Positions 4,963-6,979 of a stretch of 64,000 nt of DNA are shown piece after piece. Below the pieces are notes generated by a model. It made no database searches. It was not told where the DNA came from and saw only the letters and a list, made by a program, of their open reading frames with translations. This DNA is from Dyella sp. OK004. GTDB taxonomy: Bacteria > Pseudomonadota > Gammaproteobacteria > Xanthomonadales > Rhodanobacteraceae. The position numbers and the translations under genes are program-made. The DNA is taken from the NCBI RefSeq assembly GCF_900114495.1, contig NZ_FOZI01000001.1:1197469-1261468 (forward strand). The letters run 5' to 3'. The first letter of the stretch is position 1. Each line of letters opens with the position of its first letter.

Positions 4963-5034
4963 ATGCCTCGGCGCCGCAGATCGGGCGCCCCGATGCATCA
5001 GTCTCCGCCGGCAGCACCAGAGGAAGCAGACTTC

Positions 5035-5760
5035 ATGAGGAAGCCGAACGCCGTTCGCAACCTTTATGGCCACGTGATGCACGAGCTCGGCCTGCGCATC
5101 GTGAGCGGCAAGGTACAGCCGGGCGATGTGCTGCCGCGCGAAGAGACGCTGGCCGAAAGCTTGCTGGTCAGCCGCACAGCGCTGCGCGAAGCCTTGAAGG
5201 TGCTGTCCGCCAAAGGCCTGATCGAATCGCGCGCCGGCGTAGGCGCGCGCGTGCTGGAAGAACGCTTCTGGAACCAGCTCGACGCCGACGTGCTGGCGTG
5301 GCGCTGCGCCTCGATGCCCACCGACGATTTCGTCGACAAGCTGGTAGAGATGCGCGAAATCATCGAGCCGGCGGCCGCGGCAGCCGCTGCGCGCCGTCGC
5401 ACGGCGGAGCAACTGGCGGACATCGAAACCGCATTCAAAGCGATGGATGCGGCACAGACGCTCGATGCCTGGGCCGAAGCCGATCTGCAATTCCACGATG
5501 CGGTGCTGCAGGCGACCGGCAACGAATTGCTGTCGTCGCTGTTCTCCGTGGTCGAGACCGCGCTGGGCACCTTCTTTGTGCTGTCCGCGCGCACCGTGAG
5601 CAACTTCAAGTATTCGCTGCCGCACCATCAGAAGGTGCTGGAAGCGATTCGCCGTAAACAACCGGAAGTGGCGCGCAAGGCGATGCTGGCGATGATCGCG
5701 GACTCCCAGGCCAACCTGCAGCGTAACCGCGGCCGCGCACGCAAGAAGGCGAGTGCGTGA
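5035..5760 (+). CDS. dgoR: GntR-family (FadR subfamily) regulator, DgoR-like
   Basis: A 241-residue repressor-type protein with an N-terminal winged helix (about residues 15-75, including PREETLAESLLVSRTALRE and KGLIESRAGVG) and a C-terminal all-helical FCD ligand domain (about 95-220). The frame opens at an ATG at 4963, but the ATG at 5035 is preferred: AGAGGAAG sits 8 bases before it and the protein then begins right before the DNA-binding domain. It leads the galactonate operon and faces galM. By analogy with E. coli DgoR it probably senses galactonate or a pathway intermediate. An FadR-type operator lies 73 bp upstream. The symbol is given by context. Confidence 0.88.
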   Translation: MRKPNAVRNLYGHVMHELGLRIVSGKVQPGDVLPREETLAESLLVSRTALREALKVLSAKGLIESRAGVGARVLEERFWNQLDADVLAWRCASMPTDDFVDKLVEMREIIEPAAAAAAARRRTAEQLADIETAFKAMDAAQTLDAWAEADLQFHDAVLQATGNELLSSLFSVVETALGTFFVLSARTVSNFKYSLPHHQKVLEAIRRKQPEVARKAMLAMIADSQANLQRNRGRARKKASA

Positions 5761-5762
5761 CT

Positions 5763-6052
5763 AGGGCGACGCTGATGAAGTATCGCGATCGTCACCAGCC
5801 CTGTCTGTTCGCAGGCCGCAGGATCGTCGGCGAAGGCAGACTGGCCGTCTGTCGAGACGGCGGACCGAAGGCATGCGGACAGACAGGGCTGGCCCCAACG
5901 CATGAAAATTCAAATGATGGGGTGATGCCAGGAAGGCTCGCAGGCTGCGCCGCGTGGCTTGCCAAGACGGCCAGTCTTCCCTGCGCCACACGACACAGCC
6001 TGCGAGCCTTCCTGGCATCATGACGAACGCGATACTTCATCAGCGTCGCCCT
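5763..6052. repeat. Symmetric nest of palindromes between the regulator and dgoK
   Basis: The whole 290 bp is symmetric about position 5907.5. The outer arms 5763-5794 and 6021-6052 are inverted copies, 31 of 32 bases matching. Inside, with no spare bases, lie three palindromes: 5795-5892 (98 bp; perfect 14-bp end arms), 5893-5922 (30 bp; CCCCA/TGGGG ends) and 5923-6020 (98 bp; perfect 25-bp end arms). The tips of the two 98-bp palindromes share the 13-mer AGACTGGCCGTCT in opposite orientation at mirror positions (5838-5850, 5965-5977). The left arm starts 2 bp after the regulator's stop. The right arm covers dgoK codons 1-11, and the dgoK ATG (6020) sits at the hairpin/stem junction. Confidence 0.9.
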
Positions 6053-6979
6053 GGCCTTATCGGCCTGGACTGGGGCACCACGCATCTGCGCGCCTATCGC
6101 TATGGCGACGCGGGCACCGTGCTCGAAAGCCGGGCCTTGTCGTACGGTATCCGCCAACTGCCATCGGGCGGTTTCACCCAGGCTTTCGAGGAAGCCACCG
6201 CCAGTTGGCCTGAGGCGCCGGTGATCGCTTGCGGCATGGTCGGAAGCCGCAACGGCTGGTGCGAGACGCCTTATATAGACACGCCAGCCGATGTATCCCG
6301 GCTGGCGCATGCGTTGACCTTGTTGTCCCTGCCTGATGGACGCACGCTGCATCTGGTCTCCGGCCTGCGCGATCCCGAACGGCCGGACGTGATGCGCGGC
6401 GAAGAGACTCAAATCCTTGGCGTGCTGGCGCAGCACACCGATGTTCCGTGGAGCGGCACCTTGTTGCTGCCCGGCACGCATAGCAAGTGGGTGCGCATCA
6501 CCGAAAGCGTCGTTACCGGTTTCGCCACCATGATGACCGGCGAGCTGTACGGCTTGTTGAGCCGCCACTCCATTCTGGGCGGGGCACCGGCGGATGCCGC
6601 GCATGACGATGCCGCTTTCCAGCAAGGCGTCCGTGCCGCGCGCGACAGCGGCGCTGCGGGCGCTCTTTCCATCCTGTTCTCAGCACGCGCATTGATGCTC
6701 GACGGTGCGCTGACCTCCGACGCCGTGCCTTCCTATCTTTCCGGTCTGCTGATTGGCGACGAATTGCGCGCCGCCATCGCCGCCGGCTGGGCCGATGCGG
6801 CCTTGCCGGTGCAGATGGTGGGTTCGATGGCACTGTGCCAACGCTATGCCGATGCCGCAGGCGTGTTCGGCCTGCGTCTACGTCAAGCACCGGAGAACAT
6901 TACCGCGCAAGGCTTGTGGCGGGTCGCCGCGGCGGCCGGCCTGATTGATCACGCATCCACAAGAGTTCCCACGCCATGA
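6020..6979 (+). CDS. dgoK: 2-dehydro-3-deoxygalactonokinase
   Basis: Phosphorylates 2-keto-3-deoxygalactonate with ATP to the 6-phosphate. The 319-residue protein begins with a short lead and then the ASKHA-type phosphate loop [13 protein letters not shown]. The family stretches [23 protein letters not shown] and [16 protein letters not shown] follow. The ATG at 6020 fits the family N-terminus, but no ribosome site precedes it. Instead the codon sits where a 98-bp hairpin meets the outer stem of a larger inverted repeat. The frame also continues to an ATG at 5954, which would add 22 residues read from hairpin sequence and is less likely. The stop overlaps the dgoA start (ATGA). Confidence 0.92.

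Follow-up and report, generated by a model that had tools for sequence, protein, structure and literature searches.

Organization of the gntR-dgoK junction

The window, i.e., the whole stretch of 64,000 nucleotides of the Dyella sp. OK004 genome that was analyzed, encodes a GntR-type regulator, followed by dgoK and a dgoA-type aldolase gene that overlaps dgoK by 4 bp. Between gntR and dgoK, and extending into the latter, lies a 290-bp nest of palindromes (Table 1). The geometry that had been described in an initial sequence-only reading was reproduced throughout. An outer stem, paired at 31 of its 32 positions, encloses three directly abutting hairpins of 98 (H1), 30, and 98 bp (H2), and every part is centred on 5907.5. 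Perfect pairing extends over the first 14 pairs of H1 and the first 25 pairs of H2. The two long hairpins share a 13-bp tip at mirror positions (AGACTGGCCGTCT in H1, its reverse complement in H2) and are otherwise unlike, agreeing at 42 of 98 positions if the left is compared to the reverse complement of the right. Only the boundaries had to be corrected: the outermost 2 bp on each side belong to a target-site duplication, and the element proper is delimited by its terminal GG and CC. The predicted fold of the nest as single-stranded DNA has a free energy of -126.1 kcal/mol, compared to a mean of -58.1 kcal/mol (sd 3.5) for 200 shuffled sequences, none of which was equally stable (z -19.4). 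Comparison of the nest to Rfam gave sub-threshold matches to microRNA hairpins (best E 5.3e-6) and none above the gathering score.

Table 1 Features of the palindrome nest and the adjoining genes (positions in the window)
Feature	Position	Strand	Remark
gntR-type regulator gene	4963-5760	+	TGA stop at 5758-5760, immediately before the insertion
Putative former dgoK start, GTG	5757-5759	+	Overlaps the gntR stop; deduced from sister genomes
Target-site duplication, left copy	5761-5764		CTAG
Mobile nested-palindrome element	5765-6050		GG...CC ends; 286 bp without target duplication
Outer stem, left arm	5763-5794	+	Carries terminal inverted repeat
Hairpin H1	5795-5892	+	98 bp
H1 tip	5838-5850	+	AGACTGGCCGTCT; highly conserved across the element family
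Short middle hairpin	5893-5922	+	30 bp; A/T-rich loop
Hairpin H2	5923-6020	+	98 bp
H2 tip	5965-5977	+	Reverse complement of H1 tip
Outer stem, right arm	6021-6052	+	Pairs with left arm at 31/32 positions
Target-site duplication, right copy	6051-6054		CTGG (one-base difference)
dgoK	6020-6979	+	2-keto-3-deoxy-galactonokinase, PF05035; start and first 11 codons inside the element

The dgoK ATG at 6020 sits at the junction of hairpin and stem and the right arm encodes codons 1-11, both as noted before. Inspection by eye likewise agreed that no Shine-Dalgarno-like run precedes the gene, and a consensus scan of positions 5600-6200 yielded neither a sigma-70 promoter nor a terminator. A GTG at 5954, within H2, is in the same frame as dgoK.

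The sequence-only reading had pointed to gntR-dgoK junctions of sister species as informative, and in three sister species the same gene pair is free of palindromes. In all three gntR-linked genes (L031, L032, L033), the dgoK GTG overlaps the gntR TGA; a fourth dgoK orthologue (L034) has a different neighbour, and one genome had no match. In OK004, CTAG and the element directly follow the gntR stop, and the dgoK sequence continues with GLIGLDWG on the other side. The old GTG is severed from dgoK, and the junction ATG seems to supply a new start. dgoK itself is intact (PF05035, E 8.9e-92) and differs from the three sister genes with dN of 0.26-0.29 and dS of 0.84-1.00. The resulting ratio of 0.29-0.34 is a little above that among the sister genes (0.22-0.28), so the gene looks constrained, with slight relaxation being possible. 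It is probably still translated from within the element.

A scattered family in Dyella and related bacteria

The nest is not a feature of dgoK. It belongs to a family of small mobile DNA elements whose copies are scattered in Dyella and its relatives. Sequence searches, as proposed in the sequence-only reading, recovered copies in related genera and across the OK004 genome, where they lie beside unrelated genes. Three other places in the OK004 genome match the 290 bp over essentially the full length, with 90, 86, and 83% identity, and weaker matches, when folded, have the same architecture with unlike stems. A search pattern made of a junction and a tip had 14 matches in this genome vs. one for a backward control; 12 of these are elements, and two (C6:597237 and C7:8868) do not look like elements. 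Altogether, OK004 has at least 13 whole copies of about 290 bp without a transposase gene, a number that includes one copy that was missed by the pattern and found by parsing (L003) and one that was counted by its fold, as the parser had missed its outer stem (L012). Genes adjoining these copies include ptsH/ptsI-like (L062), M23/S41 peptidase (L008), and phospholipase D/exonuclease VII genes (L016).

As dgoK is encoded in part by the right outer arm, of which the left arm is a near-perfect inverse, a single local event could be envisaged, in which template switching duplicated the dgoK codons in inverted orientation and the nested palindromes arose by chance. The three other full-length copies (83-90% identity) and the family at large refute this scenario, which can be dismissed for practical purposes.

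In the genus, the pattern gave 38 matches among six genomes vs. five for the control, with G000 and G004 accounting for nearly all matches, and blastn detected element pieces in four of the six (none in G003 and G005). G004 contributed 36 matching pieces. Several of its matches start within about 15 bases of contig ends (contigs C5, C43, C46), which suggests that assemblies tend to be interrupted at copies and that the counts are underestimates. In one neighbouring genus, 16 genomes had 129 pattern matches vs. 12 for the control (sums by hand, from a survey of 233 genomes). A scan of named genomes returned at least 113 stretches with element matches; the 80 matches listed are from Dyella, Rhodanobacter, Frateuria, Mizugakiibacter, Lysobacterales MAGs, and one MAG labelled Eremiobacteraeota. 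Among the matches listed for 126 genomes of the order outside Rhodanobacteraceae, no GAAGGCAGACTGG tip was recognized by eye. Phage and plasmid collections, which may leave out records near the source genome, gave no element match at E 1e-5, and viral contigs contained no exact match to one tip pattern.

Constant geometry and changing stems

Of 73 loci submitted to parsing, 64 were parsed (nine were dropped) and 53 of these passed clean-up (11 were not clean). In the 53 clean copies, H1 measures 95-98 bp, H2 98-99 bp, the outer stem 31-42 bp, and the middle part 9 or 23-32 nt. In the 113 loci taken from named records, some matches, several of them at locus ends, do not represent whole copies. 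These records contain 63 whole copies, partly the same ones, of which 59 have H1 and H2 in these ranges; outer stems in this set measure 31-36 bp. Junction bases and, largely, tips are constant across copies, and stem sequences vary. Pairing is nevertheless kept in register: among 93 distinct elements, the paired fraction is 0.93 in the outer stem, 0.91 in the first 23 pairs of H1, and 0.87 in the first 36 pairs of H2, and falls to 0.15-0.35 if one side is slid by 1-3 positions.

The proposal that different sequences keep the same pairing, made from the two hairpins at dgoK, therefore extends to the whole element family, with many two-sided substitutions. Fifteen copy pairs with at least 95% identity differ by 17 two-sided and 64 one-sided changes, and 525 pairs with 80-85% identity by 5580 two-sided and 4269 one-sided changes; copies are reused among pairs, so these events are not independent. 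Estimated by hand, fewer than one two-sided pair would be expected at 95% identity or above if the changes were independent. Selection on the folded DNA and correction of palindromes during replication both predict these data. That lengths and tips are constant speaks for some selection on geometry. Separate nested insertions of palindromes, which had been considered as another origin of the nest, are not in keeping with its recurrence as one unit across the family.

Mismatches of the outer stem are balanced (26 G-T, 22 A-C, plus strand). Those of H1 lean toward G-T, with 127 vs. 85 A-C over 40 columns including unpaired tip columns, and 112 vs. 36 in columns 1-37 (summed by hand). Those of H2 lean toward A-C, with 139 vs. 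17 G-T. Few columns carry these counts, and related copies share them. Such opposite leans fit better to two hairpins of the same type in inverted order than to one RNA strand, and selection on a single-stranded RNA is accordingly unsupported.

These patterns also bear on the earlier suggestion that the nest was selected as a regulatory RNA or DNA structure that gates translation of dgoK. In favour of this suggestion, the nest covers the dgoK start, no ribosome site is visible, and the fold is extremely stable. However, the same nests stand beside unrelated genes in the same genome, the nest is absent at dgoK in three sister species, and the opposite leans of H1 and H2 do not fit one transcribed strand as the selected form. 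The first two of these observations correspond in part to what the sequence-only reading had named as grounds for regarding the nest as ordinary mobile palindrome debris. We therefore regard control of dgoK as a very improbable reason for the existence of the structure. The hairpins may still affect dgoK translation, which would be a side effect and not the purpose of the structure.

Some copies depart from the common plan. In one OK004 copy (L017, at C3:766098), the H2 tip is inverted relative to the other classed copies (1 of 81; 36 of 117 were unclassed), which is what flipping of hairpins by way of a cruciform would produce, and the tip of L242 looks similar by eye. L159, L189, L236, L242, and L259 have an insertion close to the tip of H1, namely a second small palindrome of about 45-50 bp (CACGCGGGGAG...GAGGAGCGAGG), which is present twice in L189. 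L172, L213, L230, and L266 represent a short form of about 162 bp, in which the outer stem surrounds H1 alone.

Ends, target sites, and a probable link to IS5-type transposases

The consensus of 142 distinct element ends is YTAR-GG...C.CTGA, and these ends form terminal inverted repeats. In a test for target-site duplication, the five best-scoring settings share one register, which corresponds to a 4-bp direct repeat just outside GG...CC. After removal of 35 unusable elements from a total of 105, the flanking 4-mers are identical in 24 of the remaining 70 copies vs. a shuffled mean of 8.3, and none of 10,000 shuffles reached 24. They are non-identical in 46 copies, and the copy at dgoK is among those that differ, by one base. 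YTAR sites occur on the left of 41 and on the right of 38 of the 70 copies. YTAR is the target of the IS5 group. The element is thus short, present in many copies without a transposase gene, bounded by terminal inverted repeats and a target-site duplication, and has an empty site in relatives, which is the combination of features that characterizes miniature inverted-repeat transposable elements (MITEs).

Of 30 transposase loci (IS5-type or other DDE) that were inspected, only three (L272, L273, L281) are bounded by GG...CTGA ends that are both flanked by YTAR; all three come from a neighbouring genus. In L273 and L281, IS5-type transposase genes lie between GGATGCTCTGA ends with YTAR flanks, and each reading frame holds an in-frame stop. 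NF033581 (IS5 family) is the model matched by the uninterrupted portion of the L273 protein (E 2.7e-92). One end of L281 agrees with one element end type at 21 of 22 bases (best of 77 ends) and one end of L273 with an element end at 20 of 22, while the four other IS ends agree at 15-17 of 22. The end type of the dgoK copy agrees with all six IS ends at only 10-12 of 22 bases. In the six genomes of the genus, neither PF01609 (IS5-type transposase) nor the L273 transposase protein (P0002) had a match, the latter an empty result without a positive control, so that copies there may now be stranded. PF01609 is present in nine of 20 chosen carrier genomes and absent from 11. One genome of 3.5 Mb (G085) has 41 PF01609 matches, including IS5-type copies with element-like ends. 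From these end and target sequences we infer that the element is MITE-like and was probably moved in trans by IS5-type transposases.

An alternative mobilization system would be a RAYT, i.e., a Y1 tyrosine transposase that reads the hairpins of a REP- or REPIN-like palindrome. The CGTCA junction beside H1 recalls CGTC-tagged REPs, the two hairpins with a common tip stand in inverted order, and OK004 has one Y1 transposase match. However, CGTC-REPs are described, in the available text of the source, as units of 20-40 bp with stems of 8-9 bp and an unpaired tag that lack a transposase dedicated to them (PMC3733652), whereas the hairpins at dgoK measure 98 bp and have stems that exceed those of the REPs severalfold, and most of CGTC is paired, being part of the outer stem. 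Matches to PF01797 (Y1) occur in three of the six genomes of the genus, two of them above the cut-off, and G004, with its 36 matching pieces, has none. The 4-bp duplication and the GG ends fit better to a DDE transposase, and we give mobilization by a RAYT little chance.

In combination, this leads us to favour with good confidence that the 290 bp represent a short non-coding MITE-like copy, moved by an IS5-type transposase, that inserted after the GTG of dgoK and whose junction ATG now opens the gene. The ends of the element (GG...C.CTGA inverted repeat) and its YTAR sites, e.g., CTAG and TTAA, would be cut and joined by IS5-family transposases in trans. Its interior consists of two hairpins of about 98 bp that have their tips in common and are arranged mirror-symmetrically on either side of a short middle hairpin. 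G+C-rich genes probably contain few YTAR sites, which would explain why copies come to lie at gene borders. At the locus studied here, the element inserted directly behind the former GTG start of dgoK, which lay across the gntR stop. This severed the old start and removed the overlap with gntR, and the constant ATG of the right junction now seems to open dgoK in frame with 11 element codons.

Comparison to known palindromic elements

Correia/NEMIS elements are IS5-related and use TA as target. The Dyella element resembles them in being short and non-coding, in having inverted-repeat ends, and in probably depending on an IS5-type transposase in trans. In contrast to them, it consists of about 290 bp of nested mirror-symmetric palindromes, has YTAR and not TA as target, and varies in its stems while pairing stays. 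NEMIS of Neisseria are classed as MITEs in the accessible part of PMC3733652.

QMITE1 and QMITE2 of Coxiella burnetii, as portrayed in the accessible text of PMC5896051, are likewise MITEs with a long palindromic fold that are often near genes and sometimes add codons. QMITE2 differs by repeats of 7-11 nt and a GTAG REP, and that text reports C-terminal codon additions and in-frame inserts for QMITEs and does not use the term start codon (PMC5896051). Rickettsia palindromic elements are a further case of a palindromic element turned protein-coding in frame, as far as the available text of PMC10969869 and PMC3733652 goes; these have about 150 bp and lie inside reading frames, whereas the Dyella element has about 290 bp, IS5-type ends, and a position at a gene start. 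QMITEs and Rickettsia palindromic elements are close to the Dyella element in kind. GTAG/CGTC REPs and TIRs with RAYT/TIRYT are also inverted palindrome pairs scattered in the genome, but are units of 20-40 bp with an unpaired tag, for which the available text of PMC3733652 describes no 4-bp target duplication.

No description of the element family was found in the titles and abstract openings of open-licence papers, which is weak evidence of absence. The element is probably an IS5-type MITE that consists in its entirety of a nested cruciform with mirror symmetry. With about 100 natural long palindromes of shared geometry and unlike sequence, the family offers a test bed for the upkeep and repair of palindromes in bacteria.

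Putative gene starts within the element

The copy L003 of OK004 interrupts the first codons of tamA, separating the native ATG from the gene and leaving the two out of frame. The frame of the native ATG crosses most of the element and stops at the far junction, and the tamA frame opens inside the element. At the same site, the tamA start of G004 (L308) retains a deletion scar, composed of 29 bp without any difference from the left arm and of a few bases from the right end, which is in frame with the native ATG. The tamA insertion is therefore older than the split of OK004 and G004. The two tamA genes differ with a dN of 0.067 and a dS of 0.746 and are about equally far from four outgroups (e.g., 0.820 and 0.813 identity to L309). 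As judged from these substitution patterns, tamA has stayed under purifying selection with its putative start inside an element copy, which is the strongest indication that a gene may remain functional in this situation. At both dgoK and tamA, the element seems to have taken the place of the start with the gene surviving, which is relevant to how genes that overlap in operons can be uncoupled.

The ATG of the element junction is invariant (101 of 101 distinct copies), so it was not made for dgoK. A role as built-in start-codon donor was rejected: on each side, just 71 of 101 copies keep the outward frame open across the end. The three frames of the right arm are open nearly equally often (85, 79, and 69 of 117), and among 104 long frames running across one of 141 ends, only 28 use the junction frame. 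This is no enrichment, and start-codon donation would hence be opportunistic.

One could go further and propose that the folded four-way DNA junction is itself the selected unit, that transposition or upkeep needs the extruded cruciform with its two tips, and that the outward ATG/GTG codons take over gene starts. Sequence would then drift and geometry would not, and gene starts could be captured without killing the gene. We hold this extension to be doubtful, more so than the MITE-like insertion after the dgoK GTG.

The reading frames at L130, L163, L014, and L185 had no Pfam match. In two further copies, at the start of a nirB-like reductase gene (L002) and of a GDSL lipase gene (L193), the gene is in frame from the junction codon, and these look like additional start captures; sister matches of the nirB-like gene are only 36-37% identical.
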